Of a stretch of DNA of 64,000 nucleotides, positions 1,941-55,561 are shown in pieces. Numbering within the stretch: the stretch's first letter is position 1; each line of letters starts with the position of its first letter. The translations under genes were made by a program, and so were the position numbers. The stretch lies in the NCBI RefSeq assembly GCF_003383095.1, contig NZ_PSYW01000005.1, positions 1-64,000 on the forward strand, read 5' to 3'. Source of the DNA: Haloferax sp. Atlit-12N. Lineage in GTDB: Archaea > Halobacteriota > Halobacteria > Halobacteriales > Haloferacaceae. The notes under the pieces are model-generated. The model made no database searches, was not told the origin of the DNA, and saw nothing but the letters and a program-made list of their open reading frames with translations.

Positions 1941-3146
1941 TCAGGTGTCGGCGTTCTCGATGAGGACGTCTTTCACTACGTCCGGATCTTCGAGCAGTTG
2001 GTGCTTGGTGTAGCTTCCTTCCGCACTTCCACCGCTGTGTTTCGACTGTTCGATGATATCGAGAAAGGCGTGTTCTTTCAGCAGGTCGCGGACCCGCCGA
2101 AGTGAGAGGCTATCGGAACCCTGCTGCCGACAGATGTTCTCGTAAACCTCGTAGACACGACTCGTTCGGAAACCGTCCTGCTGTTGGTTGGAAAGCGAGA
2201 GGATAGCAAGCGCTTGTAACACGTAGCGAGAGTGGGGCGTCGACCCGCGAATCAACTCGCGGAAGCGGTCGGTCTCGGCGCGCTGTCGCGCCTGCGTGAC
2301 GAAGTTCTCTCTGACCGTGCTCGCGCCCATAGACTGGGCGATCTCACCCGCGTACCGCAGGATGTCGATAGCTTTCCGCGCGTCCCCGTGCTCGCGGGCG
2401 GCGAGCGCCGCGGCCCGTGGAATCGTCGACGGGTCCAACACGCCGTCGCGGAACGCGTCGCTGCGTGCGTCCATGATGTCGCGAAGTTGGTTCGCATCGT
2501 ATGGCGGGAAGACGAACTCACGCTCGCAGAGGCTGGATTTCACCCGTTCGTCCATCCGGTCTTTGTACTGAATCTTGTTGCTGATTCCGATAACGCCGAG
2601 CTTACAGCCGGCGATCTTGCCGGCCTCCCCCGCCCGCGAGAGCTGCATGAGGATGTCGTCGTCGCTCAGTTTGTCGATTTCGTCGAGGATGATGAGGACG
2701 ACGTCGTACAGCGAATCGAGGATGCGCCACAGTCGTTTGTAGTACGTCGACGTCGAGAGCCCCTTGTCGGGGACTTTGATTCCGGTAATCGCGGTGTCGT
2801 TGACGCTGTCGGCGATAGTCTGGACGGCCTGCGTCTCGGTCGTGTCCTGCGCGCAATCAACGTAGGCGAACGTCGCTTTCACTCCCTCTTCTTCGGCCGT
2901 CTCGACGAGTCGCTGGGAGACGTACTTCGCACAGAGCGATTTCCCCGTTCCCGTCTTCCCGTAGATAAGGACGTTGCTCGGGCTCTGTCCGAAGATGGCG
3001 GGGTTCACCGCGGTCGCGAGATCCGAGATCTCGTCGTCACGACCGACGATGCGACCCTCCCCGGGAAGGTGGTTTATCTCCAACAACTCCTTGTTGGCGA
3101 AGATGGGGTCCTCCCGGGTGAAGAGGTCGTCGCTGGCGTTAGGCAT
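1941..3146 (-). CDS. orc5: Orc1/Cdc6 family replication initiator
   Basis: AAA+ initiator protein that binds origin recognition boxes and loads the MCM helicase. The 401 residues contain Walker A GKTGTGKS (residues 63-70), Walker B with the Asp-Glu pair in VVLIILDEIDKLSDDD (about 150-165), a sensor-like stretch GVIGISNKI, the arginine-containing AAA+ lid, and a C-terminal winged helix ending near HAFLDI. Length fits the family. The gene starts 10 bp from the first box and reads away from the origin, the usual arrangement. The symbol follows the oriC2-linked orc5 of H. volcanii, recalled by gene order rather than by alignment. TTG/GTG alternatives were not needed because ATG 3146 gives the expected N-terminus. 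Confidence 0.93.
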   Translation of the reverse strand: MPNASDDLFTREDPIFANKELLEINHLPGEGRIVGRDDEISDLATAVNPAIFGQSPSNVLIYGKTGTGKSLCAKYVSQRLVETAEEEGVKATFAYVDCAQDTTETQAVQTIADSVNDTAITGIKVPDKGLSTSTYYKRLWRILDSLYDVVLIILDEIDKLSDDDILMQLSRAGEAGKIAGCKLGVIGISNKIQYKDRMDERVKSSLCEREFVFPPYDANQLRDIMDARSDAFRDGVLDPSTIPRAAALAAREHGDARKAIDILRYAGEIAQSMGASTVRENFVTQARQRAETDRFRELIRGSTPHSRYVLQALAILSLSNQQQDGFRTSRVYEVYENICRQQGSDSLSLRRVRDLLKEHAFLDIIEQSKHSGGSAEGSYTKHQLLEDPDVVKDVLIENADT

Positions 3147-3155
3147 GTTCGCAAC

Positions 3156-3286
3156 ACACCACGTTTCCGGTGAAAGGACTTACCATTCGACCCAGCACAC
3201 ACACACCACGTTTCCGGTGAACGACCACGAACCTCGGTTTCCAGTCCACACGAAACGGAGGTATTGATTCACCGGAAACACGGTGT
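3156..3286. repeat. origin recognition boxes, orc-proximal group (3 copies)
   Basis: Copies at 3156-3174 (minus), 3203-3221 (minus) and 3268-3286 (plus). The first two are exact; the third reads CACGG instead of CGTGG in its right half. The inner pair is convergent, and the first overlaps the expected promoter of orc, so Orc may repress its own gene (inference). Confidence 0.9.
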
Positions 3287-3572
3287 GAGGGAGTCTATCT
3301 AACCCAGCGAGGATCGAGGAATCACGGATTGTCTCTCGTCCAGTAACGAAGACGAAAACGAAGATAAAAACGGAGACAAAACCTGAGAGTCCGGTACTTC
3401 CGGTGCTGACCACGCTGAATGTACTCGTTGTCATCGTAACGGAGTTCAATCAACGTCGTCCGCGGTAACCGGCGACACGACCGAGAGCGCAGGTTCTCTG
3501 AGACTCGCAAGCATCGAAAGAGACGACCAAAACACCGAAGGCACGCGCTTTGAGACGTATTGTTCGGGTCGA

Positions 3573-3660
3573 CTAATACTCGAGTTTCGAGTATAGTTTT
3601 GTTTGCGAGTGTATCAATGGTCGTTAACACAAATAAACTATTTAACTGTTGTTATACGTA
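3573..3660. other. AT-rich duplex unwinding element with hairpin
   Basis: The lowest-GC part of the origin. It contains a perfect inverted repeat, ATACTCGA-GTT-TCGAGTAT (3576-3594), which extends to ACT/AGT if one A bulges, followed by the run TTAACACAAATAAACTATTTAACTG-type sequence. It separates the two box groups, where melting is expected in archaeal origins. Confidence 0.7.
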
Positions 3661-3726
3661 GGCTCCCGTTCCACTGACTCGGAGAAAGCGACCAGTTGAC
3701 CGTCAGTAGTTGACACAGGCCAGTTG

Positions 3727-4448
3727 CTCACCGGAAACGAGGTGTCTCACACCGGCCCAGAGGGTTGTGTCGATATTGGTAGTAGCGCGCCTCCATCGGC
3801 TTATTTCACCGGAAACGTGGTGTGTTGGTAATAAATGGACCGATTCAGACCAGGCCGAAAACTACGGAGAAAGGACGGGCGTCAACGGCCGCTGTTCGGC
3901 GCGCCTCCCTTAGAGAGACACTCGGGGCAGTTCATCGGAAACGTGGTGTGCGCGTGACTCTGTTCCCGTGGCTCGCCAGCGGGCCGACACCGATTCCGAC
4001 GTGATTACTGCCTCCTCCCATCGTGTCGAATTTCACCGGAAACGTGGTGTCTGTCAGCGCTGCTACGTTCTCCGCTCGGTCGGTTGGCAGCGGCTGAATC
4101 GGGAATTCGCTGACTTCGAAACGAGACCACCGACGCGACGTTCAGTCGACGCGGCGTTCAGCCGACGCGACCTTCTGCCGTCGGTCTCGACCGGCGGTCC
4201 CCGCCGCTCGCGGTTCGAGGTAGCCTCGCCGTCGAGGTCGGATTTCACTCCCGCATATTTCGACCAATTCACCGGAAACGTGGTGTCTCTGACCGTTTCA
4301 CGCGGAGTTGCGATTCACCGGAAGCGAGGTGTGGTACTTCCCGCGGGGACGGGTCGGTAACTGATCGGTGCCGACCGACTGCCGGCACCGACTTTTGTCG
4401 ATATCTACGACTCGACTTTCGCTCTCTCGTTCACCGGAAACGTGGTGT
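3727..4448 (+). repeat. origin recognition boxes, distal group (7 copies)
   Basis: All seven point the same way: 3727-3745 (CTCACC start, GAGG), 3805-3823, 3931-3949 (TTCATC start), 4032-4050, 4268-4286, 4314-4332 (GAAGCGAGG variant) and 4430-4448. Four are exact copies of the consensus. Spacing is irregular, from 27 to 217 bp between neighbours. Confidence 0.9.
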
Positions 4449-4561
4449 GCATGCGACTCACGTGCACCCCGGCTCGCCCACGCTCGGAACGTTCTCCCGC
4501 GACGGACAGTGTCGTTAGCGTGGCGTCAATGCAATTACCCAGGGGAACGAACCGATACTGT

Positions 4562-38724: not shown

Positions 38725-41700
38725 TTACGCGTCGATCGCGCGGGCGAACACTTCGACAGGGTGCGGCGGGTCGTCGGTCGCGCCGTCCATGTCTTCGAGT
38801 TGCGTCCGACAGGACGCGCCGGGGGCGACGACCACGTCGCCGGGGCTCTCGGCCACTTGGCCTTCGAGGATGTTCCCGATTGCCTTCGACATGGAGTAGT
38901 GTTCGGCCTCGTAGCCGAACGACCCGGACATCCCGCAACACGTCGAGTCCAGCGGGTCCACCTCGAAGCCGGCGCGGCGGAGGACGCCCACCGCGTGGTG
39001 GTCCTTCTTCGTGGACTTCTGGTGGCAGTGGCCGTGGTACGTCAGGGACTCGTCCTGCGGGAGGAACGACAGCGACTCGTCCAGCCGGAACGAATCGACG
39101 TACTCCATGACGCCGTAGGCGTTGGCCGCGACGGTTTCCACGTCGTCGCCGGAGAGCAGGTCGAGGTAGTCAGACTGGAACATCACCGCGTCCGAGGGCT
39201 CACAGAGGACGATGTCCCAGCCCTCCTCGACGTAGGGCGCGAGCACCTCGACGTTCTGCTCGGCGTCGTCGCGGGCCTTGTCGAGAAAGCCCTTCGAGTG
39301 CGGCGGCCGGCCGGAGCCGGCGACGCCCTCGGGAATTCGGACGTGGACGTTCGCGGCCTCCAGCGCCTTCACGGCGGCCTTCCCGACTTCGGGATGGTTG
39401 TAGTTCGTGTACGTGTCGGGGAACAACAGCACCTTACGGTCGGCCTGCGCCTCCGGGATGTCGGCCGACCCTCGACTTTCGAACCACTCCACGAAACTCG
39501 TCGAGTGGAATTTCGGGAGCGAGCGCTCCTTTGCGATGCCGACGGTCTTCTCCATGACCGTCCGCGCGCCCGGCACCTTGGTCGCCGCGTTGGCGAGGGG
39601 GGCGAACGCCGACCCGAGTTTGGACAGCGAATCGATGTTGGCAAACAGCTTGTCGCGGAGGCTGGAGCCGTTGCGCTGGTGGTACTCGTGGACGACTTCG
39701 GCTTTCATCTTCGCCATGTCGACCTCGCTCGGGCAGTCCTTCGAACAGCCCTTACAGCCGACACAGAGGTCCAGCACCTCGTCGACGAACTCGTCGGTGA
39801 ACATCTCGTCTTCCGGGAGCCCGCCGCTCATGGCCTGTCGGAGCATGTTGGCGCGGCCGCGAGTCGCCTGAATCTCCTCTTCGGCGGCGCGGAACGTCGG
39901 GCACATCACGCCGCCGACCGTGGACTGCTGGCCGCGACAGCCGGCACAGCCGTGGCAGAGTTCGACCATGCCCTCGAACCCGTTGTCGTTGTCCCAGTTC
40001 AGCGCCGGTTCGAAGCCGGCGTCGAACTCGTAGTCGGGCGAGAATCGGAGGTTCTCGGTCATGTCGTAGTCGCCGCAGATGTTCCCCGGATTCAGGAGCC
40101 AGTCGGGGTCGAACGCGGTCTTGAGGTCGCGGAAGACGTTCCAGAGGTGGTCGCCGTACAGTTTGCGGTTCCACTGGGTCCGCGCGCGGCCGTCGCCGTG
40201 TTCGCCGGAGACGGAGCCGCCGTACTTGACGACCAAGTCCGTCACCTCGTCGGCGATGGCCTCGAACGTCTCGACGCCCTCGGCCGTTTTCGTGTTGACC
40301 AGCGGACGGATGTGTAGGACGCCCGGCCCCGCGTGGGCGTAGTACGAGGCGAAGGTGTCGTGTTCGTCGAGGATGTCCTGGAAGTCCGAGACGTACGCCG
40401 GGAGGTTCTCGGCCGGGATGGCGGTGTCCTCGATGTACGCGATGTGCTTTTCGTCGGTCGTCCGACCGAGGAGAATCGGGAGTCCCGACTTGCGCATCTT
40501 CCAGAACTTCGCGCGGGTGTCGGCGTCGTGGGCCTCCATGAAGTCGGTCGCGCGGCGCTCCGTTTCGGTCACCGAGGCCGAGCCCTCGTCGGGGTCGAAC
40601 TCGGTCCCGTCGGGGTCGATGACGCGGTCTTCGATGAGGTTCGCCACCTTCTGTTTGCCGTCCTCGTCGGAGTCGGCGTAGAACTCCACGAGGAGCGTCG
40701 AGTCCGTGCCTTCGGGGAGCATCCCGACCACGTCGGCGAACTCGGCGGTGTCGCGCGCGAGGTCGAGCAGCACGTCGTCCATGACCTCGACGGCCGCGGG
40801 TTCGTGTTCGAGGATGGGCGCGACGTCGTGCATCGCGTCGATGACGTCGTCGTAGGTGAGAAGCGCCACCGACGCGGTGTTCGGAATCTCCTCCAGCGAG
40901 ACGGTCGCCTTCGTCACGATGCCGAGGGTGCCCTCGCTCCCGGCGATGAGCCGACCGAGGTTGACGCGGCCGGCCTCCCAGTCCTCGTCGATGCCGGTAT
41001 CGTCCGGCGTGCGGCGCTCGCCGCGCATCTCGTCGACGAGCATGTCGAGGTTGTAGCCCGAGACGTTGCGCTTCAGGTCGGGGAAGCGCTCGGAGACCTC
41101 GTCGGCCTCCTCGTCGAGTATCCGCGCGACTTCCGCGTAGATTCGGGCTTCGAGGTCGCCGTCGGGGTCGCCGGACTCGCGGAGTTCGTCGACGCTCACC
41201 TCGCCGAACGTCGTCACCGTGCCGTCCGCGAGAACGAGTTCCAACTCCTCGATGTAGTAGTCGGTCTTGCCGTACTTCAGCGAGTGCGAGCCGGTGGAGT
41301 TGTTGCCGATTGCGCCGCCCAGCGCGGAGCGGTCACCCCACGCCGGGTCGGGCGCGAACTTCAGGCCGTGGGGGGCGAGTTCCTCGTTGAGTTCACCGAG
41401 ACGGACGCCCGCTTCGGCCGTGACCGTCCGCGCCTCGGGGTCGATTTCCTCGACGCCGCCCATGTGGCGGACGAGGTCGAGGACGACGGCCTCGTTGACG
41501 GTCTGGCCGGCGAGGCTCGTGCCGCCGCCGCGGGGGAGGACGGGAATCTCGCGGTCGGCGCAGTACTCCATCACCGCCGCCACGTCGGCGGTCGAAGTCG
41601 GCATGACGACGCCGATGGGGACTTGCTCGTACGCCGACGCGTCGGTCGCGTACAGCGTTCTCGTGTAGGTGTCGAATCGCACGTCGCCCTCGACGAGGGA

Positions 41701-41805
41701 CTCGAGGTCTTCGACCAGCCCCGGCCGCTCGACGTCGTCGCTGACGTAGTCGTAATCGCCAGCGAGCGCGGGGTCGGTGGCCGGTTCGTGCGTGTTGGAT
41801 GCCAT
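38725..41805 (-). CDS. dld: FAD/Fe-S D-lactate (2-hydroxy-acid) dehydrogenase
   Basis: A 1026-residue fusion. The FAD_binding_4 domain comes first (FAD loop PVLPRGGGTSLAGQTVN, about 90-106), then a FAD-oxidase C domain (about 270-550). Two 4Fe-4S motifs follow: CHGCAGC...CP (about 615) and CVGCKGCSKDCPSEVD (about 680). Last are two CCG-type domains. The first lacks its cysteines (GSGRPPHS, about 830); the second keeps CCGMSGSFGY (about 958) and CHQ. Such GlcD-GlcF fusions oxidise D-lactate or related hydroxy acids and feed electrons to the membrane. It is next to the lactate permease on the same strand and near the LutBC genes. Dehydrogenation of glycolate is an alternative. Confidence 0.86.
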   Translation of the reverse strand: MASNTHEPATDPALAGDYDYVSDDVERPGLVEDLESLVEGDVRFDTYTRTLYATDASAYEQVPIGVVMPTSTADVAAVMEYCADREIPVLPRGGGTSLAGQTVNEAVVLDLVRHMGGVEEIDPEARTVTAEAGVRLGELNEELAPHGLKFAPDPAWGDRSALGGAIGNNSTGSHSLKYGKTDYYIEELELVLADGTVTTFGEVSVDELRESGDPDGDLEARIYAEVARILDEEADEVSERFPDLKRNVSGYNLDMLVDEMRGERRTPDDTGIDEDWEAGRVNLGRLIAGSEGTLGIVTKATVSLEEIPNTASVALLTYDDVIDAMHDVAPILEHEPAAVEVMDDVLLDLARDTAEFADVVGMLPEGTDSTLLVEFYADSDEDGKQKVANLIEDRVIDPDGTEFDPDEGSASVTETERRATDFMEAHDADTRAKFWKMRKSGLPILLGRTTDEKHIAYIEDTAIPAENLPAYVSDFQDILDEHDTFASYYAHAGPGVLHIRPLVNTKTAEGVETFEAIADEVTDLVVKYGGSVSGEHGDGRARTQWNRKLYGDHLWNVFRDLKTAFDPDWLLNPGNICGDYDMTENLRFSPDYEFDAGFEPALNWDNDNGFEGMVELCHGCAGCRGQQSTVGGVMCPTFRAAEEEIQATRGRANMLRQAMSGGLPEDEMFTDEFVDEVLDLCVGCKGCSKDCPSEVDMAKMKAEVVHEYHQRNGSSLRDKLFANIDSLSKLGSAFAPLANAATKVPGARTVMEKTVGIAKERSLPKFHSTSFVEWFESRGSADIPEAQADRKVLLFPDTYTNYNHPEVGKAAVKALEAANVHVRIPEGVAGSGRPPHSKGFLDKARDDAEQNVEVLAPYVEEGWDIVLCEPSDAVMFQSDYLDLLSGDDVETVAANAYGVMEYVDSFRLDESLSFLPQDESLTYHGHCHQKSTKKDHHAVGVLRRAGFEVDPLDSTCCGMSGSFGYEAEHYSMSKAIGNILEGQVAESPGDVVVAPGASCRTQLEDMDGATDDPPHPVEVFARAIDA

Positions 41806-41910
41806 TGATTAGCTCTGTCGTATGTCGGTTTGCGTGAACGGATAAAGACACCCGGTGACGGGCGTCGCTCCGGGTCGCGCGCGGTTGGTTTGTGAGTCGA
41901 TTCGCGACCC

Positions 41911-41980
41911 GAACCGAGTCGGGTCGGTCCGAGTCAGTTTGGGTCAGTCTGAGTCAGTCTGAGCCACTCCGGGCCGGGAC
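41911..41980. repeat. phased decamer repeats between lldP and dld
   Basis: Seven consecutive 10-bp blocks related to GAGTCAGTCT: gaaccgagtc, gggtcggtcc, gagtcagttt, gggtcagtct, gagtcagtct, gagccactcc, gggccgggac. Blocks 3-5 are closest. A 10-bp period places each on the same face of DNA. They lie about 105-175 bp before the dld start and after lldP's stop. Confidence 0.6.
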
Positions 41981-42030
41981 GACGCAACTCGGGACGAGTC
42001 AGGTCGCTCCGAGTCGGGAGCGCCGACCGG

Positions 42031-43743
42031 TTAGAACACGCCCGGGAACAGGACGTAGCTGAACAGGAGCGTGAGGACGCCGGTCGCGGTCCCGTAGTAC
42101 AGAAGCGGGATAAGTTCGAGGCGGATGACGCGGCCCTCCTCGCCGACGAGGCCGACGACCGCGAGCGCGGCGACGACGTTGTGGACGGCGATGAGGTTGC
42201 CGATGGCCCCGCCGACCGCCTGCGCGCCCAGCATGACGGTCTTCGACGTGCCGATCTGGTCGGCGACGCCGTACTGGAAGGTGCCGAACAGGATGTCGGA
42301 GACGGTGTTCGACCCCGCGAGGAACGCGCCGAACGCGCCCACGAAGGCGGCGAAGAACGGGTAGGCACCGCCCGCGATGCCGGCCATCCCCTCCGAGAGG
42401 ACGATGAGCATGCTGTCAGTGCCCGTCGCGTTACCCGACTGGAGCATTATCTGGACGGTTGCGACGGCGAACAGCAGCGCGATGACCGCCGGCATGACTT
42501 TCTCGGCGGTCTCCGCCCACGTGGCTTTGACCTGTTTCGCATCCATGTCGTGGAGGCCGATGGTGACGAGGTGGACCACGAGGAACACCGCGCCGGGCAG
42601 GTAGAGCAACTGGAAGTCGCCCGTCAGCCCCGTACCCCAGATGTCGGCGTACTCGAAGACGAGGTTCGACGTGAGGAAACGCGTCAGCGGGTCGAACACG
42701 CGGGTGACGACGAGCAGGGCCGCGACGAGGACGTACGGCGTCCACGCCTTCCAGAGCGACATCTGCTGGGCGACGCCCCCGTCAGCGGCGACCGCGCCGC
42801 CGCGTTTGCTCGTCTCGCCGGGCTGGATGTCGCCGACCCAGTGGTCGGGCCACTCGGTCTGCGGCGCGAAGTCCCACTCCTCGTCGGGGTGGAAGAAGCC
42901 GGCCTTGAGCGCGGAGACGGTGAGCAGCAGTCCGACCATCGCGCCGACCAGACCGGGGAACACCGGTCCGAGGAAGTAGGCCGTCAGGAAGTACGGCACG
43001 GAAAAGGACGCCCACGCGAACAGCGTGAGGGGAAGCACTTCGAGCGCCGGCTTGATGGAGCGCTCCTCGCCGAAGAAGCGCGTCATCATGGCGACGCCGA
43101 TGAAGGGGAGCACGACGCCGACGGCGACGTGGTTCATCGCCGCGAAGACGGCGATTTCGGACACCCACTGTTCGACGCCCATGCCCTGCGCGTCGAGCGC
43201 GTTCGTGATGACCGGCACGTCGTCGAAGATGTCTATCATCCCGATGATGAGCGGCGTGCCGACCGCGCCGAAGGTGATGGCCATGAGGTTCCCCGTCAGC
43301 GCGACCACGACGGCCGCGAGCGGCGGGAAGCCGAGGCCGACGAGGAGCGGGCCAACGATTGCCGCGGGCGTGCCGAAGCCGGCGGCCGCCTCGATGAACG
43401 AGCCCATGAGGAACACGAGCAGGACGACCTGCACGCGGCGGTCCTCGCTGATGGAGGCGAAGCCGTTGTTGATGGCGTCGAACGCGCCCGTCTGCTTGAG
43501 CGTGTACAGGAGCAGGATAGCCCCGAAGACGATGTACAGGATATTCGAAGCGGTGATGAAGCCGTTGATGGTGGACGCGATAATCCACTGCGGCGTCATG
43601 CCCCAGCCGAGGACGCCGGCCCCGATTGCGACGAGCCACGCGACGGGCATCGCCCGCGTCGCGGGCCAGTACCGCCCGACCATCAGATAGGCGATGGTGA
43701 TGAGCGGGAGCAGCGCGATGAGCGCGTCGGTCGCGCTAACCAT
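42031..43743 (-). CDS. lldP: L-lactate permease (LctP family)
   Basis: Membrane transporter of 570 residues with about 14 hydrophobic segments. The LctP signature [29 protein letters not shown] is intact, and the C-terminal half has [22 protein letters not shown]. Imports lactate (or glycolate) with a cation. ATG 43743 is preferred over the longer frame from 43758. The only TATA-like element upstream (ATATATAT at 43835-43842) implies an untypical leader of about 65 nt with a G-rich Shine-Dalgarno-like GGGGGTG 7-13 nt before the ATG. It is divergent from the HTH regulator at 44116 and co-directional with dld. Confidence 0.88.
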
Positions 43744-43795
43744 GCTGCACACCCCCACAGTTCGTTCCAGCCTGTGCCGTTCCAGATTCGTGCCT

Positions 43796-43842
43796 GATGC
43801 GGTGCATCGTGGAATCCGCTACACAACTTTTGTGATATATAT
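43796..43842 (-). promoter_or_regulatory. promoter region of lldP
   Basis: A TATA-like ATATATAT (43835-43842) and a small inverted repeat GATGC-GGT-GCATC (43796-43808). The repeat lies where transcription would start. The resulting leader of about 65 nt is long for this organism. Confidence 0.45.
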
Positions 43843-44026
43843 CTATCGTTCGTCGCTATTCCTGACAGATCTATTGGGGCCGGCTTACCCGGAGTACACA
43901 ATCCAGTACACTCGTAGATGCCGTGCCAAATACGGAGTTAAACGCCGATTTCTTATTCTTCACGGTCTATCCTGTCTGTTTGCGCTCGGAGCCGAATTCG
44001 GGAACTCGACTCTCGAATCGACCTAT

Positions 44027-44102
44027 TCACACGTGTTTCTCGGCCGCAACACACGACTGAATTGGAGGTACACTCGTGTGCAAAGGCTTATGCAGTCGTG
44101 TG
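44027..44102. promoter_or_regulatory. CACACG/CGTGTG sites around the HTH promoter
   Basis: A perfect 10-bp inverted repeat CACACGACTG (44050-44059) / CAGTCGTGTG (44093-44102) flanks the TATA-like CTTATG (44087-44092). A CACTCGTGTG half-site lies at 44071-44080 and CACACGTG at about 44027-44034. The right arm directly abuts the TATA-like element, pointing to autoregulation by the protein at 44116. Confidence 0.55.
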
Positions 44103-44115
44103 AAAAGGACGTATC

Positions 44116-44757
44116 ATGGAAGATGAGTCTCGCGCGCGCTCTCGAAATGAGCACGGACAGTACGTGGGACGCATCTCGCTGGACGCCGTCTTGGACGTGT
44201 TCGAGGAGCGCGACGACGCCGCTCGGCCCCTCACCGCCACCGACGTGATGGAGGCGCTCGACTGCTCGCGGCGCACCGCGCACAACAAGCTGAACGAACT
44301 CGAAGAACGCGGCGACCTCGCCACCCGGAAAGTCGGCGCTCGGAGCCGGGTGTTCTGGATTCCGATGCCCGCCCGCGGGGACTCGACTGCGGGGCGAGCC
44401 GCGGGTTCGGCAGACTCGCCAGCAGCCTCCGAAACCGAGGTCCCGAACGAGGCCGACGACCCGGATGACCTCGACCACCCGCCGGCCGTCTCGTCGGCCA
44501 TCGAGCGCGCCGACCTGCCGGGAAGCGGCCCGATGCTCGACGCCCGCCGCGAGGCGCTGTCGGCGGCGTACCAGTACCTGACCGACCATCCGGAGGCGAA
44601 GAAGGCGGACTTCCTACGGGACGTGTACTACGACTACCCCGCCGGATTCGAGTCCGCTGAAGGCTGGTGGAACGCGATTCAGCCGGCGCTCAAGCAACTG
44701 CCCGGGGTCGACCCGCCGGAAGAGCGCGGTCATATCTGGCACTTCCTCGGCGGGTAG
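44116..44757 (+). CDS. HTH-domain regulator beside the lactate genes
   Basis: A 213-residue protein with an N-terminal winged helix (ISLDAVLDVFEERDDAARPLTATDVMEALDCSRRTAHNKLNELEERGDL, about 18-66). An acidic Ala/Pro-rich linker follows. A conserved C-terminal domain (about 135-213, YQYLTDHPEAKKADFLRDVYYDYPAGFESAEGWWNAI) resembles one seen with other haloarchaeal HTH proteins. It is placed between the divergent lactate permease and the Nramp-like and lut genes, so it is a candidate lactate regulator (inference from position). CACACG sites surround its promoter. ATG 44116 is about 26 nt from a TATA-like box. Confidence 0.75.
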   Translation: MEDESRARSRNEHGQYVGRISLDAVLDVFEERDDAARPLTATDVMEALDCSRRTAHNKLNELEERGDLATRKVGARSRVFWIPMPARGDSTAGRAAGSADSPAASETEVPNEADDPDDLDHPPAVSSAIERADLPGSGPMLDARREALSAAYQYLTDHPEAKKADFLRDVYYDYPAGFESAEGWWNAIQPALKQLPGVDPPEERGHIWHFLGG

Positions 44758-44790
44758 TCCGGTTTTCGAACGTGGCTCTCACCCTACGAA

Positions 44791-44797
44791 TTTATAC
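44791..44797 (+). promoter_or_regulatory. TATA box upstream of the mini-ORF and Nramp-like gene
   Basis: TTTATAC. It predicts transcription starting near 44820, only about 10 nt before the mini-ORF at 44830 and about 60 nt before the transporter start. Confidence 0.6.
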
Positions 44798-44829
44798 ACT
44801 ATCGGGCCACAATTCCGGCAAACGCATCG

Positions 44830-44883
44830 ATGTCAAGCGATTCGTCGTCTGAGAGTTCCGTCTCGGAGTGTGGCCGCTCGTGA
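44830..44883 (+). CDS. 17-codon mini-ORF coupled to the transporter start
   Basis: Encodes MSSDSSSESSVSECGRS. Its TGA stop (44881-44883) overlaps the GTG (44880-44882) that opens the transporter, a GTGA junction typical of translational coupling. The ATG is the first start after the predicted transcription start. It may be a leader peptide, or a one-base frameshift may have split off an acidic Ser-rich N-terminus of the transporter. Confidence 0.4.
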   Translation: MSSDSSSESSVSECGRS

Positions 44884-46715
44884 GCGACGGTCGCCCCGGT
44901 TCAGACCCGGATGCGTCCGCGCGCTCGGACGCGCTCGACGACTCGGACGACTCCAACGCGGAACCCTCGGAGTCCGCGCCCTCGACAGAACCCAGCGTCG
45001 CCGGCGGCGACGACGTCTACGCCTCCGAAGTCGAGGGAAAACAGTACCGCGGCACCTGGTATCTCCCGCTTCGCTACGAGGAGTTGGAGGAGTCGGACGA
45101 CTCGGACGACTACCCCGATTCGGGCGACGGTGGGTCGTTCCGCCTCGCCGACCTCCCGCGGGTCCCTCGCGTCGGCCACGTCGTCGGTCCCTCGGCCATC
45201 ATGCTCGGGGCGTCGCTCGGGAGCGGCGAGACGCTCTTTTGGCCCGTGTTGACCGCGCAGTACGGTTGGGGGGTCTTCTGGGCGTTCGTCGTCGGCGTCT
45301 TCACGCAGTTCCTCATCAACACGGAGCTTCAGCGCTGGACGCTCGCCACCGGCGAGAGCATCTTCCGCGCGTTCGCACGCGTGGGTTCGTACTGGCCGTG
45401 GGCGTTCCTCGTCGGTGGGCTCATCAGCCTCGGCTGGCCGGGGTGGGCCGCCGGCGCGGCGCAGGTCGCCACGACGGCGCTCGGACTGGACGGGTCTGTC
45501 GCGCTCTTCGGCGCGTCGCTCGCGACGTGGAAACTCGTTGCCGCCGCCCTCATGGGCGTCATCTGGCTCTCGTATCAGGTGTCGTCGGTCATGTACAACG
45601 CCGTCGAGGTGTTCCAAATCGGCCTCCTGTTCGTCGCCATCGGCGCGGCCCTACTGCTCGTCGCCGTGACCGGTTCGTGGGTCGAGTTCGCCGACCTCCC
45701 GGCGGCCGCGGGGTCGGTCGGAACGCTCCCCGAGGGGCTCGACATCGCGGTCTTCCTCGGCGGCCTCGCCTTCGCCGGCGCGGGGGGCTATCTGAACCTC
45801 TCGCAGAGCCTCTGGATGCGCGAGAAGGGCTACGGCATGGGCAACTATCAGGGGCGTGTGAAGAATCCGCTTCGCGGCGACGACCCCGAACCCATCGAGC
45901 GCGACGGGTTCGCGTTCCGCCCGACGCTGACGAACCTCCGCCGCTGGCGCGGCTGGTGGCGCGTCGTCCAACTCGAACACCTCCTGACGTTCGTGTTCGG
46001 TTTGCTCCTCGTCGCCCCCGCGCTGATGAGCGTGGCCATCCGCTACGCGTCCGGGTCCACCGCCAACGCCATCCAGATGTGGCTCGGCGACGTCGTCCCG
46101 CTGCTCGGCCCGGTTGGCTCCTTTCTCGTCTTCGCCGTTCTCTTCGTCGCGCTCTTTACCACCGAGTACGCCATCGTCGAGTCGTTCGTCCGCAACAGCG
46201 CCGACGCCCTCTACGAGTCCTACGGCCGGGAGGCCGGCTGGGACCTCCCGAAGCTGTTCTGGCGGCTCCTCACCGCCTTCTGCGTCTGGGGCGTCGTCAT
46301 CATCTTGCTTTTTTCGTCGCCGTTCGAGGGCCAAGAGCCGTTTTTCTTCCTCGTCGTCGGGGCCGCGATGTCCGGCGTGATGATGTGGCCCTACACCGCG
46401 CTCGTGCTCGTGATGAACACGACTCGGCTCCCCGAACACGTCCAACCCGGCTGGGCTCGGGTCGTCGGCATGTGGTGGGCGACGGGCTTCTACGGCTACT
46501 TCAGCGTCCTCCTCGTCGGGACGTGGCTGACCGAACTCGGTCTCACGACGTTCCGGACAGTCCCGACGGTCCTCGGGAGCGGCACTGGGGGCTACCTCCT
46601 CTGGGCGGGCTACTTCGTCGTGCAAACGTACGCGGTGACCAAGTCCGCCGCCGGCAAGCGCGACGCGGCCGGAACTGTCGCCGACGCCGACGAGGCGACC
46701 GGTCGGTTCTCCTGA
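44880..46715 (+). CDS. Nramp-fold transporter with non-canonical metal site
   Basis: Membrane protein of 611 residues: an acidic N-terminal tail of about 85 residues, then about 11-12 helices of the Nramp/LeuT-like fold. Helix 1 reads VGPSAIMLGASLGSGETLFWP, where true Nramp metal transporters have DPGN; helix 6 has AGAGGYLNLSQSLWMREKG in place of the usual MPH region. It may carry a metal other than Mn/Fe, or another solute. GTG 44880 overlaps the mini-ORF stop; GTG 44868 is an in-frame alternative. Position between a candidate lactate regulator and lutC suggests co-regulation with lactate use (inference). Confidence 0.78.
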   Translation: MSDGRPGSDPDASARSDALDDSDDSNAEPSESAPSTEPSVAGGDDVYASEVEGKQYRGTWYLPLRYEELEESDDSDDYPDSGDGGSFRLADLPRVPRVGHVVGPSAIMLGASLGSGETLFWPVLTAQYGWGVFWAFVVGVFTQFLINTELQRWTLATGESIFRAFARVGSYWPWAFLVGGLISLGWPGWAAGAAQVATTALGLDGSVALFGASLATWKLVAAALMGVIWLSYQVSSVMYNAVEVFQIGLLFVAIGAALLLVAVTGSWVEFADLPAAAGSVGTLPEGLDIAVFLGGLAFAGAGGYLNLSQSLWMREKGYGMGNYQGRVKNPLRGDDPEPIERDGFAFRPTLTNLRRWRGWWRVVQLEHLLTFVFGLLLVAPALMSVAIRYASGSTANAIQMWLGDVVPLLGPVGSFLVFAVLFVALFTTEYAIVESFVRNSADALYESYGREAGWDLPKLFWRLLTAFCVWGVVIILLFSSPFEGQEPFFFLVVGAAMSGVMMWPYTALVLVMNTTRLPEHVQPGWARVVGMWWATGFYGYFSVLLVGTWLTELGLTTFRTVPTVLGSGTGGYLLWAGYFVVQTYAVTKSAAGKRDAAGTVADADEATGRFS

Positions 46716-51550: not shown

Positions 51551-51624
51551 GGGCCGGTAGCTCAGTTAGGCAGAGCGTCTGACTCTTAATCAGACGGTCG
51601 CGTGTTCAAATCGCGTCCGGCCCA
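51551..51624 (+). tRNA. tRNA-Lys (CTT)
   Basis: Acceptor GGGCCGG/CCGGCCC with discriminator A, anticodon stem TCTGA/TCAGA and loop CTCTTAA (anticodon CTT), T-loop GTTCAAATC. 74 nt, no intron, no encoded CCA. Its 3' end from 51603 is the left attachment site of an integrated element; the tRNA stays intact. Confidence 0.95.
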
Positions 51625-51632
51625 CTTCCTTC
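51603..51632 (+). repeat. attL (30-bp direct repeat)
   Basis: The last 22 bases of tRNA-Lys plus CTTCCTTC. It is identical to 55532-55561. After this point left and right flanks differ. Confidence 0.88.
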
Positions 51633-51882
51633 CCGATGGAATCACAGTCTCCAGAGAGCGGCTGATGCATCCAAATCTACGCAGTATAGCCATTAGAACC
51701 TTCTGGAACACCCGAAATTCCGGTGTTAGTTCAACACGAGACTAACGCGACTCAACGCAGTCTTGCGATTAGCCAATAGTCGAAGTAGTTCGACGGTATC
51801 AGCACATAGACTCGCGCACATTCGGCTGTGGACTATCTGAGAGTGTAACCACGGTTCAGGTGTGACGAACTACACCGACGTG

Positions 51883-51939
51883 GCTCTGTTGAAATATATG
51901 GTCGCTGATAGTTTTTTGAGGCCGTGCTGAATACAGAGC
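51883..51939. mobile_element. possible insertion-sequence remnant
   Basis: Fifty-seven bases bounded by inverted 7-mers GCTCTGT (51883-51889) and ACAGAGC (51933-51939). The left end GGCTCTGTTGAAAT resembles ends I associate with haloarchaeal insertion sequences. No transposase is left, and no target duplication is evident. Confidence 0.3.
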
Positions 51940-52014
51940 GCATATCTTTCAGACTCGCCCAGCGCACAATGTGTTCGGCAGAAAACATATCATTGGGGTT
52001 ATCCACTATACTCT

Positions 52015-52425
52015 ATGACGGTCTCCAGCCAACAATATGCAACACAGAAAATCAACTTAATTTCCCGACGAACCATGATTTCTCTAATTTCGGGAATAGT
52101 GCCGCTATTGTCTGGGTGCGTGCAAACAACGACAGGCCACCTCAACGGCATGGAAGTGACCACTCGTCCTCCAGACGCGACAGTTGTCACAGCATCTGAT
52201 GACCGGATTGCGGACGTGGAGGCGATACAATCCGTAGTACGGCGGGCGACTGAGCGAGACGGAGAGATTGCGACCGTTGAAATAAGCGGGAGAGAAGCGG
52301 ACAGGGCAATCGACCAACTCGAAAAACTCCCGTATTACGACAGTAAATCTTCGAACTACCGTTCTGGCTGGTACATCGAGTATCAAAATCAAGTGGTAGT
52401 CGTTGAATATGCAGTGCAAGACTAA
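52015..52425 (+). CDS. putative Tat lipoprotein of the element
   Basis: A 136-residue exported protein. ISRRTMISLISGIVPLLSGC gives a twin-arginine signal with hydrophobic core and lipobox Cys (about residue 35). The mature part (ATVVTASDDRIADVEAIQSVVRRATERDG, later AIDQLEKLPYYDSKS and VVVVEYAVQD) looks like a small alpha/beta domain. ATG 52015 is 28 nt after an AT-rich AACATATCA element and keeps the twin Arg. Function unknown; it could mark or modify the cell surface of the host. The composition is less GC-rich than chromosomal genes nearby, in line with foreign origin. Confidence 0.62.
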   Translation: MTVSSQQYATQKINLISRRTMISLISGIVPLLSGCVQTTTGHLNGMEVTTRPPDATVVTASDDRIADVEAIQSVVRRATERDGEIATVEISGREADRAIDQLEKLPYYDSKSSNYRSGWYIEYQNQVVVVEYAVQD

Positions 52426-52730
52426 CCCTCTGTCTGTGTCACGCCGCTCTTGTCATTTTATGAGGAATTAAACAGAGTCAACGACGCAAGTTTGAGATGG
52501 AATGAGAATTTAGAAACCTCATCTGGTATCGCAACTCCGGGGGTATGACCACCCAAGGCTATGCTCTATCTTTTGTATTCGTTCTCAGAAATCTCAACGC
52601 TGTCTATCGAATATCGGAATCTATTTGTCGCTAAACAACGTCTCTAATAGTGAGGACTTCTTCCGCGAACCTTAACCAGATAGCCTCGGCTACGGTTCAC
52701 TGCATCGAGGAGGCGGAACATCTGATTACT

Positions 52731-53438
52731 ATGTCGGCTACAACTACTACTACTACTACTACTGGTGAGACTGGAGTACAGCCAACGACTGCTACGCCTT
52801 CCTCTTTCGTTGACTGGCGAGCGTTGAACGAAGAAGGGCCATCTGAAGAAGACGAGCAGAAGGCACGAAAGAGAACGCTTGAAATTGGGAACCGAACCGA
52901 AATCAAGTGGAGAGAGGCAAAGAAAGGCGAGCGGACGTTCTATAAACGGCTTGATGACCACAACCGCGACTGCTACTGGAAATACCGAGACGAAATCGAT
53001 GTGTCGAAAGACTATGACAACCAGTTCAAGCGTGAATCTCTCCTCGCGTTGGCTGGTCAACTATGTCTGAACTCCGTTCAACGACGAATGGCACTTAACC
53101 GGTTTTTTCGCCTGAACCTGTGGAAGTTCGGTATGCGTTCGGATGTGGTCGCGTTCTGCATCTGTGGGTTGATACTGAAGAAAGAAGCGAAGCGTTACGG
53201 AGACAAATCGCCATACCATCCCGCACGTAATCCCGAAAACAACTCTTCTCCCTTTGCACGGGTAGAGTCTCAACTCATCGAGTCGGACGGTCGAACAACG
53301 AAGAATTACATCCAGAAAGTGTGGGGCAAACTCGAACAGGGGAATCCCCCGACCCGAAGTAAAGATGAGTGGAAGCCATTTGTCCGCTCACACTCGGATA
53401 TTCAGAATCACCCTTCTCACAGTCCTGATTGGGCTTGA
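52731..53438 (+). CDS. uncharacterised protein of the element
   Basis: No family is recognised. From ATG 52731 it has 235 residues; an upstream in-frame GTG at 52650 with an AT-rich CTATTTG 28 nt before it is also possible. The N-terminus has eight Thr in a row encoded mostly by (ACT)7. A basic central region (KARKRTLEIGNRTEIKWREAKKGERTFYKRLDDHNRDCYWKYRDE) is followed by a helical block (RESLLALAGQLCLNSVQRRMALNRFFRLN, about 130-160) and a short hydrophobic helix. The positive charge, unusual for this host, suggests nucleic-acid binding, for example a replication or control protein (inference). Confidence 0.6.
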   Translation: MSATTTTTTTTGETGVQPTTATPSSFVDWRALNEEGPSEEDEQKARKRTLEIGNRTEIKWREAKKGERTFYKRLDDHNRDCYWKYRDEIDVSKDYDNQFKRESLLALAGQLCLNSVQRRMALNRFFRLNLWKFGMRSDVVAFCICGLILKKEAKRYGDKSPYHPARNPENNSSPFARVESQLIESDGRTTKNYIQKVWGKLEQGNPPTRSKDEWKPFVRSHSDIQNHPSHSPDWA

Positions 53439-53553
53439 TTTAACATTCGAGAAGTACCACACACCACCCCCTATATAAACGGATGCACAGTAGTATTAGT
53501 GAGGCGGTTACGGGAATAAGATAACTTCCTCTGTATTTTCTCTTGTATTCTAC

Positions 53554-53775
53554 TGCATTGAGGTGTTTCTAACACAGAAATGTATATTCAAGAAATTCTC
53601 AACGATGTAACGGGAGTGGTTGAATGCATCGAGGGTCGGTTCCCGGCGAGTGTACGAGCCGACCGACAACGTGAAGATTTCTAAGCATTGAGGCGTTGTC
53701 TCGATGAGTCTATTCGGTCTAACTGCCTCGATGAATTTGACTACGCAGAGAACACAGTTCAACGCCGCTCAATGC
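53554..53775. repeat. cluster of GCATYGAGG repeats
   Basis: Copies at 53554-53563, 53625-53634, 53684-53693 (plus), 53725-53734 (minus) and 53768-53775 (minus, partial). More copies lie at 52701-52710, about 54336-54344, and 54364-54373 (minus). Together eight copies in both directions inside a 1.7-kb part of the element. They may be iterons or recombinase arm sites. Confidence 0.55.
53580..53684 (+). CDS. possible 34-codon ORF in the repeat region
   Basis: ATG 53580 opens a short frame starting MYIQEILNDVTGVVECIEG. A strong TATA-like CTATATAAA (about 53471-53479) lies about 105 nt upstream, so any message would have a leader. It overlaps a GCATCGAGG repeat, whose codons read Cys-Ile-Glu. 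The surrounding 490 bp between 53439 and 53928 hold no other frame I would support. Confidence 0.2.
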   Translation: MYIQEILNDVTGVVECIEGRFPASVRADRQREDF

Positions 53776-53928
53776 CTCGAACAGTTTGGAGCGGTACGAA
53801 TGTTGATACTGTGATTGACCTCCCATGCTGTCAGTTTCCCGGCCTCTAATGTTGGCGAATTTGACGGCTTCAGGCGAGTAGTGAACACACTCTCACTGTG
53901 ATTTTCACAGTAGAGTGGGAGTTCCCAC

Positions 53929-54150
53929 TCATCTGGTGAATTTGTACGAATTTCGCTCGATGTAGTCGCCTAACAGCAAGTTGAACCGGCGGAATAAGAT
54001 GAAGATGTTGATGATTGAGACCACTATCAGTATGAAAGGCCAAAGGTCGAACGATACTCTCAACTGCAACATCAGGGAGAACACAAGACCAACGATAGTC
54101 ACTGCGCCACTCTCCCCAATGTACCAAACAGCATGACGGAGATAACCCAT
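53929..54150 (-). CDS. small two-helix membrane protein of the element
   Basis: A 73-residue protein with two hydrophobic segments (about 17-33 and 38-55: VTIVGLVFSLMLQLRVSF and PFILIVVSIINIFILF) and a basic cytoplasmic-looking end (RRFNLLLGDYIERNSYKF). Small membrane proteins are common in haloviruses and plasmids (holin-like, immunity or structural roles), but no family is recognised. It reads toward the middle of the element from between the repeats and the integrase. The 275 bp to the integrase stop hold only repeats. Confidence 0.45.
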   Translation of the reverse strand: MGYLRHAVWYIGESGAVTIVGLVFSLMLQLRVSFDLWPFILIVVSIINIFILFRRFNLLLGDYIERNSYKFTR

Positions 54151-54425
54151 AACAATAACACTCTCCTGACAATATTATGTCTAACGAATAACAAGATGTA
54201 TATCTCTCGTCAGACTCTTCTGGTAAATTTCGAGTCTAACCGGTGAAACCCTGACTCAACACAGAAAATTTCGCAGACGGAGTTACCAAATACGCGCTCA
54301 CCCACGCCGGTCAATGTTCTAACTATGTGTTCCGATGCATCGAGTCGGTTGTCTCTTCCCCACGCCTCGATGCGCTGACCCACACAATTCAGAAGAGAAG
54401 AAGAATCGCTGAGTGGAAACCTTCC

Positions 54426-55451
54426 TTAGATATTGTCGAAGTAGCCCCGTCGCGTTTCCATCTCTTGCTTCTTCGTCCGTTTGTCGTAGTGCTTCTTCAG
54501 CACGTCAGCACTCACGTCCATGCGTTCAGATACGGCGTCAATGGGTATGTCCATTCGTCGGGCGTGGGTAATCGCTCCCTTGCGAAGCGAGTGGGAGGCG
54601 TGAGAGGATGGACACTTCGATGCGGCGTGATAGGAGTTTGCGGCGTCACAAGTCTCGGGGTCGCGGTCGTGTGGACACCCAAGCCCGTATTTGCACGGTC
54701 GGGTTGCTCGGTAGCACGCACTTCGGATTGCACCCTTCGAGATTCGACCTTGACGAGTCGTTAGGAGTGGTTCACGTCCGTATTCGTCTTCCTTCGGGAT
54801 TCGATGATGTTCGACATAGTCTTGTACTATCTCGTTTACCTTCGGTTTGAGCGAAACCACTCGCTCTCCTTCCTTCCCGTTCTTCAACGGCGTATCTTCG
54901 TCTGGTCGATGCTGGACTTCGAGAGCGCGGTCGTCAGGGTGGAAGTCGCCTACATCGAGAGAACGGAGTGCGCCGTTCCGCATCCCCGTGTGCCAGAGCA
55001 GTTCAAAGATGACGTGGCCTCTGTGAGAGTAGTTGTACTTCCGATTGTACCGGAGGATTGTCTCGGCAGTTTCGGCGTCAACGAAGTCGTCATTCACGTC
55101 TTCTTTGTTCTTCATCGTCGGTGGGTCGATGTATTCCGACATTCCCTGTTGGACGGCGTCAATGGACTCGCAGAACTTGATGAACACCTTGAGGGTACTC
55201 AGTTGCGTCGCCATTGTGACCTTCTTGCAGTCGCCTTTCTCACGACGCCATTTCTTGTACTTGTGGAAGTGCCGACCGCTGACGTGATTCAGGTTGTCTA
55301 TGCCTTCTCCGTCGCACCATTCAACGAACGGCGAAAGGCGGTACTTGTGTGCTTGATACGTCGCGTCGGCAATCTCACCGCGTCGGTTTTCGAGATACCA
55401 TTCTTTCGCTTCTCCCGGCTCGATGGGTTTGAGTTCCTGTTGTTGTCGCAT
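54426..55451 (-). CDS. tyrosine recombinase (integrase) of the element
   Basis: A 341-residue site-specific recombinase. A SAM-like N-terminal domain (about 15-110) is followed by the catalytic domain: R158 in WHTGMRNGALRSLD, H287 and R290 in SHASHSLRKGAI, and the nucleophile Y322 in LKKHYDKR. Between them lies a Cys/His cluster (C253, C259, H261, C268, C280), a putative zinc site also found in relatives from haloarchaea. The gene starts 80 bp inside attR and reads into the element. The uninterrupted frame fits a non-partitioned integrase whose gene is not split by integration. Confidence 0.9.
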   Translation of the reverse strand: MRQQQELKPIEPGEAKEWYLENRRGEIADATYQAHKYRLSPFVEWCDGEGIDNLNHVSGRHFHKYKKWRREKGDCKKVTMATQLSTLKVFIKFCESIDAVQQGMSEYIDPPTMKNKEDVNDDFVDAETAETILRYNRKYNYSHRGHVIFELLWHTGMRNGALRSLDVGDFHPDDRALEVQHRPDEDTPLKNGKEGERVVSLKPKVNEIVQDYVEHHRIPKEDEYGREPLLTTRQGRISKGAIRSACYRATRPCKYGLGCPHDRDPETCDAANSYHAASKCPSSHASHSLRKGAITHARRMDIPIDAVSERMDVSADVLKKHYDKRTKKQEMETRRGYFDNI

Positions 55452-55531
55452 GATTGGGCCTCATGCTCAGCACTCCCGGCGAGCCTCTGTTCCATCGAGC
55501 GCCTATGCGAAGCATATCCGGCGCGAGAGGT

Positions 55532-55561
55532 TGTTCAAATCGCGTCCGGCCCACTTCCTTC
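55532..55561 (+). repeat. attR (30-bp direct repeat)
   Basis: Identical copy of attL, without the rest of the tRNA upstream. Marks the right end of the element. Confidence 0.88.

Follow-up and report, generated by a model that had tools for sequence, protein, structure and literature searches.

A sequence of about 25 bp repeated in a small tRNA-Lys-integrated element of Haloferax sp. Atlit-12N is shared with viruses of the genus Haloferacalesvirus and may mark sites of a virus-linked regulator

The first 64,000 nucleotides of contig NZ_PSYW01000005.1 of Haloferax sp. Atlit-12N, hereafter the window, contain a small integrative element at a tRNA-Lys gene, in which a first-pass annotation had noticed repeats of the word GCATYGAGG. 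Analysis of these repeats revealed that they are degenerate copies of one asymmetric sequence of about 25 bp (core CATYGAG; consensus GTGRTTCAMYGCATYGAGKSGGKKG) with conserved flanks, which is common to tailed viruses of the genus Haloferacalesvirus and to haloarchaeal tRNA-integrated elements that differ in integrase and replication gene. We propose, at somewhat less than even odds (a probability of about 0.44), that the copies are bound by a sequence-specific regulator associated with these viruses and that the element is satellite-like or virus-responsive. The repeats noticed first are a real signal that was interpreted too locally.

Scored with a matrix (threshold at least 17 bits unless stated otherwise), the element displayed the following sites and one weaker half-site:

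52692..52717, plus strand: motif site with GCATCGAGG at 52702-52710, directly 5' of the open reading frame (ORF) that starts at 52731 (ORF 52731)
53265..53290, plus strand: motif site TCATCGAGT, within ORF 52731
53545..53570, plus strand: motif site with GCATTGAGG at 53555-53563
53616..53641, plus strand: motif site with GCATCGAGG at 53626-53634
53675..53700, plus strand: motif site with GCATTGAGG at 53685-53693
53719..53744, minus strand: motif site with TCATCGAGG at 53726-53734
53767..53775, minus strand: weak half-site GCATTGAGC, under the matrix threshold
54327..54352, plus strand: motif site with GCATCGAGT at 54337-54345, left arm of an inverted pair
54358..54383, minus strand: motif site with GCATCGAGG at 54365-54373, right arm of the inverted pair, with 21 bp between the cores

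Both strands of the element are occupied, as had been noted at first. The right arm of the inverted pair lies about 50 bp past the integrase stop codon, and the 490-bp convergent gap 3' of ORF 52731 (46% GC) holds six CATYGAG cores, four of which are matrix sites. Among facing core pairs no more than 40 bp apart (one mismatch allowed), 11 of 29 have 20-22 bp between their cores, a bias with a binomial P of about 3e-6 if even gaps are assumed. RNA structure was considered and rejected as a source of the pairs: the facing half-sites follow a single shared consensus, and Rfam, used without a covariation test, matched the tRNA only. Two short ORFs in this region (53580-53684, 34 codons; 53704-53814, 36 codons) each have a motif copy immediately 5' of them.

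The eight copies of GCATYGAGG first ascribed to the element are, as exact copies, those of the whole window: five lie in the element (52702, 53555, 53626 and 53685 on the plus strand, 54365 on the minus strand) and three elsewhere (20048, 36467 and 60552). For the element itself the number holds only if the five are taken together with three one-mismatch copies outside the integrase gene (GCATCGAGT at 54337, plus strand; 53726 and 53767, minus strand); a further such copy (54615, minus strand) lies inside that gene. Likewise, the reported cluster of four full copies within 180 bp exists (53555-53734) and consists of three exact copies and one copy matching at 8 of 9 positions. The excess over chance is clear, since order-1 to order-3 Markov versions of the element contained on average 0.05-0.10 exact copies and reached five in none of 1000 versions per order. 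In the 2,793 bp left after removal of the integrase gene and the att cores, the Markov maximum was two exact copies (2000 versions per order). An order-3 Markov ranking made independently of the motif placed CATCGAG first among the 7-mers of the element, with 12 copies against 1.2 expected; in a look-elsewhere control, this count exceeded that of the top 7-mer in all 900 Markov controls (maximum 10). Among 8-mers, an ACT microsatellite ranked first and CATCGAGG (4 copies) fifth.

The motif was found in large numbers in three viruses of the genus Haloferacalesvirus, with 33 matrix sites in HRTV-8, 30 in HF2 and 30 in Serpecor1; HRTV-4, BJ1 and the first 50 kb each of HRTV-7 and PhiCh1 had none. 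The motif-independent ranking again placed CATCGAG first among 7-mers (HF2: 160 against 31 expected; HRTV-8: 155 against 31; Serpecor1: 154 against 29) and CATCGAGG first among the 8-mers of all three (78-93 copies against 8-9 expected), ahead of TAAAGACT, which belongs to the alpha motif of the known HF2 repeats. The count of CATCGAGG is 9-10 times the expectation in these viruses, as compared with 1.8 and 3.5 times in two host-chromosome samples and up to 3.8 times in short stretches of other genomes. In all 126 coding sequences (CDSs) of Serpecor1, CATCGAGG occurs 78 times against 13.4 in synonymous-codon shuffles (maximum 26 in 200), and 22 matrix sites compare with 1.1 in such shuffles (maximum 4 in 200). 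Within the 7.1 kb of intergenic DNA of the same virus, 7 of its 30 matrix sites lie wholly inside, against 0.007 by Markov model (maximum 1 in 300). HRTV-8 matches of at least 15 bits comprise 23 genic ones in the sense of the gene, 14 in the opposite sense and 9 not wholly within a CDS.

Sites 5' of HF2 genes were found for ribonucleotide reductase (47726), HrrHF2_655 (76412), HrrHF2_630 (74918), HrrHF2_215 (17072) and RtcB (37428). In three of these five (ribonucleotide reductase, HrrHF2_655 and HrrHF2_215), the site lies between the start codon and a promoter of the intergenic repeat (IR) type, as annotated in PMC8707807. An identical copy, GTGTTTTACCGCATCGAGGCTTGTAC, lies close to one end of the genome in HRTV-8, HF2 and Serpecor1 (HF2 436, HRTV-8 74018, Serpecor1 73721) and falls in no annotated CDS.

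The features of the element and its integration site are:

51551..51625, plus strand: tRNA-Lys(CTT), the integration site, its 3' end being attL (ARAGORN; Rfam RF00005 at 51551-51624)
51603..51632, no strand: attL core of 30 bp, identical to 55532-55561, in and just past the 3' end of tRNA-Lys(CTT)
55532..55561, no strand: attR core of 30 bp, a perfect match to the attL core
51603..55531, no strand: integrative element, 3,929 bp, 50% GC (most flanking 300-bp windows 60-72% GC)
52015..52425, plus strand: ORF of 136 aa, with a lipoprotein-like N-terminus judged by eye and no Pfam match
52731..53438, plus strand: ORF of 235 aa (ORF 52731), of the viral family phrog_12649 by profile match, homolog of HrrHF2_215 and HRTV8_86
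53929..54150, minus strand: ORF of 73 aa, a membrane protein judged by eye
54426..55451, minus strand: tyrosine integrase (PF00589), 80-81% identical to integrases in eight other genomes

The initial view that this is an integrative element was right. As in a satellite, an integrase and att sites are present, and no virion genes were found among ORFs and profile matches.

In the eight other genomes with an integrase 80-81% identical to that of the window, seven of the loci lie at a tRNA-Lys gene; at the eighth, L069 (G237), the stretch fetched contains no tRNA. Seven of these elements, and that of G070, which encodes a protein distantly homologous to the 235-aa one, are bounded by tRNA-Lys att repeats. 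The 235-aa gene is replaced by a primase-like gene in G067, G034 and G153 (PHROG primase E 1.6e-8 for G067) and by a helicase-like gene in G278, G279 and G042, which was recognised by eye from its P-loop; for the G279 gene, Pfam and PHROGs gave weak matches of helix-turn-helix type. Counts of CATYGAGK against the Markov mean were 9 against 0.68 in the window's element, 9 against 0.92 in G067, 11 against 1.13 in G279, 6 against 0.92 in G153, 6 against 1.27 in G278, 11 against 0.99 in G034, 12 against 1.26 in G042, 2 against 0.68 in G180 and 1 against 0.56 in G070. The motif is thus enriched in seven of nine tRNA-Lys elements, the window's included. CATTGAG is the top 7-mer in G042; in G279, CATCGAG ranks fourth and CATCGAGG is the top 8-mer. 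The 8-mer precedes the first start codon by 20 nt in the window's element, 43 in G153, 40 in G278 and 18 in G279. The tRNA-Lys element L075 (G180) has one in-frame TGA in its integrase reading and may be decaying.

Larger islands also carry the motif, which is in excess in 13 of the 15 integrative elements examined, most of them fetched through an integrase or motif match. The island stretches, all chosen through such matches, contain 12 matrix sites in L156 (G137), 7 in L157 (G286), 11 in L161 (G343), 4 in L170 (G363), 7 in L069, and 5, 8 and 8 in three stretches of G291; as a background, other haloarchaeal DNA had 4 sites in 442 kb. In L156, L161 and L069, CATCGAG heads the list of 7-mers ranked without use of the motif. 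In a class-wide search, the pattern WTCAMYGCATYGAGK matched 97 of 391 genomes at least once, with many matches probably codon-driven; 18 loci fetched from it comprised seven with arrays (L156-L161 and L170, of which three belong to a single G291 region), ten without (L162-L168 and L171-L173) and the ambiguous L169. G291 carries a provirus of Haloferacalesvirus type with terminase, portal and sheath PHROGs, its portal protein being 95% identical to that of HRTV-24. The islands are unlike in integrase (38% identity for L029; another subfamily in L156 and L157), replication gene and cargo. Genes that elements have in common with the viruses include HF2-like integrases, at 39-40% identity, phrog_12649 and a methylase gene.

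Several islands carry restriction-modification (RM) genes: a type I system in L156, with homologs in L161 and L069, and a methylase-type system in L029, L157 and G291. The large Eco57I/N6-methylase-type RM gene of HF2 (41372-45238) is 71% identical to the L029 gene and 65% to the L157 gene, and the G291 provirus region (L160) has a further homolog; these matches point to virus-island exchange. The type I operons in the tRNA-Glu and tRNA-Gly elements have three motif sites upstream each (L156 10147-10376, L161 12001-12174), as if they answered to the same regulator. A search of IMG/VR with the strict 19-bp consensus returned seven stretches, of which six are contigs of 74-77 kb that all encode a phrog_12649 gene of HF2 type and one is a contig of 6.8 kb with no relatives in this set; contig L188, which has no relatives among the element proteins, was considered a chance match. 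In the scan of a contig collection, 3 of 19 stretches were haloarchaeal (one in Natribaculum breve, two in Halorubrum salsamenti), and 16 single matches on bacterial records were considered chance. IMG/VR contig L224 (42% identical integrase) had no motif in the 9 of its 15 kb that were read.

Since the word is common to HF2-type viruses and the element, the element appears to be wired to those viruses and perhaps lives off them. A DNA-binding protein from the regulatory circuit of these viruses would recognise the 25-mer, whether in a leader or inside a gene and regardless of orientation, and in some cases at inverted pairs about 21 bp apart; the bound sites would act as dispersed operators or roadblocks, similar to stoperators. 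The genes of the small element would thereby follow the regulator of the virus. That the repeats are protein-binding sites, as first supposed, is still their likeliest nature, judged from sequence.

The nearest candidate for the binder is the phrog_12649 protein. The ORF 52731 product matched this family with E 3.6e-15 (residues 49-185), to which HF2_215 belongs with E 8.5e-86. A search of 391 haloarchaeal genomes found homologs in 27, the window's own included. An AlphaFold2 model (mean predicted local distance difference test score 70, about 90 in the core, approximately residues 89-207) suggests a single TFIIB-like cyclin repeat: the best VIA Z score of the core was 9.1, to Brf2, and the top Foldseek match was TFIIB (E 0.63, probability 0.90), which may reflect no more than a common helical arrangement. 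Alignment A1 gave no PDB profile match at E 1. Binding DNA as a regulator would be a natural role for a protein of TFIIB type.

A number of findings weigh against a virus-linked regulator. Homologs of phrog_12649 occur without an array in HRTV-7, G070 and L028, while 9 of 13 motif-bearing elements have no such homolog; the profile search was negative in the primase and helicase elements and in L157. An all-against-all BLAST of ORFs of at least 60 aa revealed no single protein common to all motif-bearing replicons. G180 and G070 are tRNA-Lys elements of the same type without the motif, and a leader position is not general, given the distance of about 370 bp between the first gene and its closest site, 5' of it, in G067 and G034. 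A Haloferacalesvirus provirus was found only in G291, and helper dependence is a proposal. The 78-93 cores per viral genome are many for a repressor, and sites in both orientations are unlike mycobacteriophage stoperators. Bare CATCGAG is also mildly over-represented in HRTV-7 (75 against 32, about 2-fold) and 1.5- to 1.8-fold in host samples (39 against 25 and 42 against 23), and the consensus and first matrix were derived from hand-picked sites of the small elements.

The density of the word, on both strands and in coding and intergenic DNA of the viruses, would also fit a Chi-like, uptake-like or self-marking sequence by which a nuclease or a machine for recombination, packaging or shut-off distinguishes viral DNA from the rest, and which small elements would carry so as to pass as viral. 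Its random-like spacing (coefficient of variation of the gaps 0.81-0.88) and high density in small elements agree with such a word, but the conserved extended flanks are more operator-like, as is the intergenic copy 5' of the phrog_12649 gene, kept in position at 9 of the 11 HF-group loci, some of which are close relatives, and at none of three HRTV-7-type loci. To our knowledge, no comparable machine has been described in archaea, and we regard this explanation as unlikely; it is quite unlikely that the word is specifically a self-recognition code by which a viral or virus-triggered machine picks out self DNA for sparing, transcription or packaging, copied densely by satellites and defence-carrying islands. 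Alternatively, viruses and elements might use sites of a conserved host protein, such as an Orc1/Cdc6 paralog with sites like the origin recognition box (ORB) or a host regulator. The lack of an element-borne gene in common and a loose likeness to the host ORB TTCACCGGAAACGTGGTGTG (window 3150-4450) speak for it. However, matrix arrays were found at none of eight host Orc1/Cdc6 loci, though the 9.5 kb of L095 contain 12 bare CATYGAGK; no orc-like ORF was noted in the element, four of five near matches in the 4-Mb genome fall in the element, and no matrix site was found in four other haloviruses, two read partly. The ORB reading was rejected on the orc loci and ORFs, and a host protein in general seems rather unlikely, although it and the genome-marking word are serious competitors of the regulator reading.

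The first-pass annotation had compared the repeats to iterons of a replication origin or to arm sites of the integrase. An origin of the small element, with iterons bound by the 52731 protein (primase or helicase in relatives) and autoregulation of its gene, could explain the site 20 nt 5' of ORF 52731, the cores in the 490-bp stretch after it and the primase- or helicase-like genes at that place in relatives. It is improbable in view of the irregular spacing, the mixed strands, the 1.7-kb spread and the occurrence of sites with three unlike replication genes, and it is insufficient because the word is scattered across whole viral genomes of 74-78 kb, coding DNA included. An additional origin role in the small element may exist alongside regulation. 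Arm-type sites are very improbable: the motif is present in seven of eight elements with 80-81% identical integrases, and two bare, sub-threshold CATCGAG cores lie near attR (55419, minus strand; 55493, plus strand), but distances of 1,059 and 1,148 bp separate the att cores from the nearest matrix sites, the motif accompanies unlike integrases, and 20 of 20 loci with 47-52% identical integrases showed no array within their 1.5-kb flanks. As to the Cys-Ile-Glu frames pointed out earlier, the two short ORFs do follow sites, but ATC GAG also simply encodes Ile-Glu. Coding copies do favour Ile-Glu or Leu-Asp frames; nevertheless, chance or a codon-usage artefact is hardly credible, because the excess persists against shuffles, in synonymous-codon controls and in intergenic DNA.

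If the repeats are sites of a virus-linked regulator, the commonest extra word of these viruses points to that regulator, and the choice between lysis and lysogeny, stated in PMC8707807 to be unexplored for HF2-type haloviruses, becomes testable; restriction-modification islands would be tied to the viral circuit as well. A shared cis code would also be a route to haloarchaeal virus satellites. A literature search of titles and abstract beginnings found no treatment of the CATCGAG word in Haloferacalesvirus and no title naming a haloarchaeal virus satellite.

The HF2 IRs resemble the motif as repeated regulatory DNA of the same viruses, and some sites adjoin IR promoters. They were rejected as its source, as the IR words TCTTTAAGTC, CGTCTNNTAGAG and CCCTTTAC of PMC8707807, which also reports the cloning of nine HF2 IRs, are unrelated to CATCGAG. 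Haloarchaeal ORBs are similar in their asymmetry, TTCAC block, G-rich end and both orientations, but the motif has no orc1/cdc6 gene nearby and differs from host repeats in core and tail. Such host repeats occur in the window at 1947-4450, where an orc1/cdc6 gene on the minus strand stands beside an origin-like array of nine TTCA[CT].G.AA matches, mostly TTCACCGGAAACGTGGTGT, in both orientations over about 1.3 kb. At the host orc1/cdc6 loci L090-L094, each paralog has its own family of nearby repeats, in which the core varies and the end is mostly GTGGTGT-like; together they form a set for studying Orc specificity.

Plasmid iterons are tandem direct repeats, regularly spaced and confined to one locus, which the Rep protein binds for replication, whereas the copies here are irregular, on both strands and spread over the element; arm-type sites of tyrosine integrases lie no more than a few hundred bp from the att core, in contrast to more than 1 kb here. 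Like Chi and DNA uptake sequences, the motif includes an 8-mer that is over-represented and scattered through both coding and non-coding DNA; set against these, the excess of CATCGAGG is higher in the three viruses than in host chromosome samples. The phage satellites P4, phage-inducible chromosomal islands (PICI) and phage-inducible chromosomal minimalist islands (PICMI) are comparable as small tRNA-integrated elements with an integrase, a primase-like gene (here in relatives) and no virion genes found, and in sharing cis sequences with a tailed virus, here a candidate helper. The shared sequence of the Haloferax element is dispersed instead of a single cos or pac site or late promoter, and the comparison is drawn here from DNA sequence; phage satellites are also induced, amplified or packaged by their helper. 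Cluster A mycobacteriophages such as L5 have stoperators, asymmetric sites in tens of copies in and between genes, oriented with transcription, at which the bound immunity repressor stops transcription. The motif likewise forms many short asymmetric sites dispersed across the genome of a tailed virus, genic and intergenic; it differs in its two orientations, greater length, inverted pairs in small elements and archaeal host, in having only a candidate binder, and in being shared by non-viral integrative elements.

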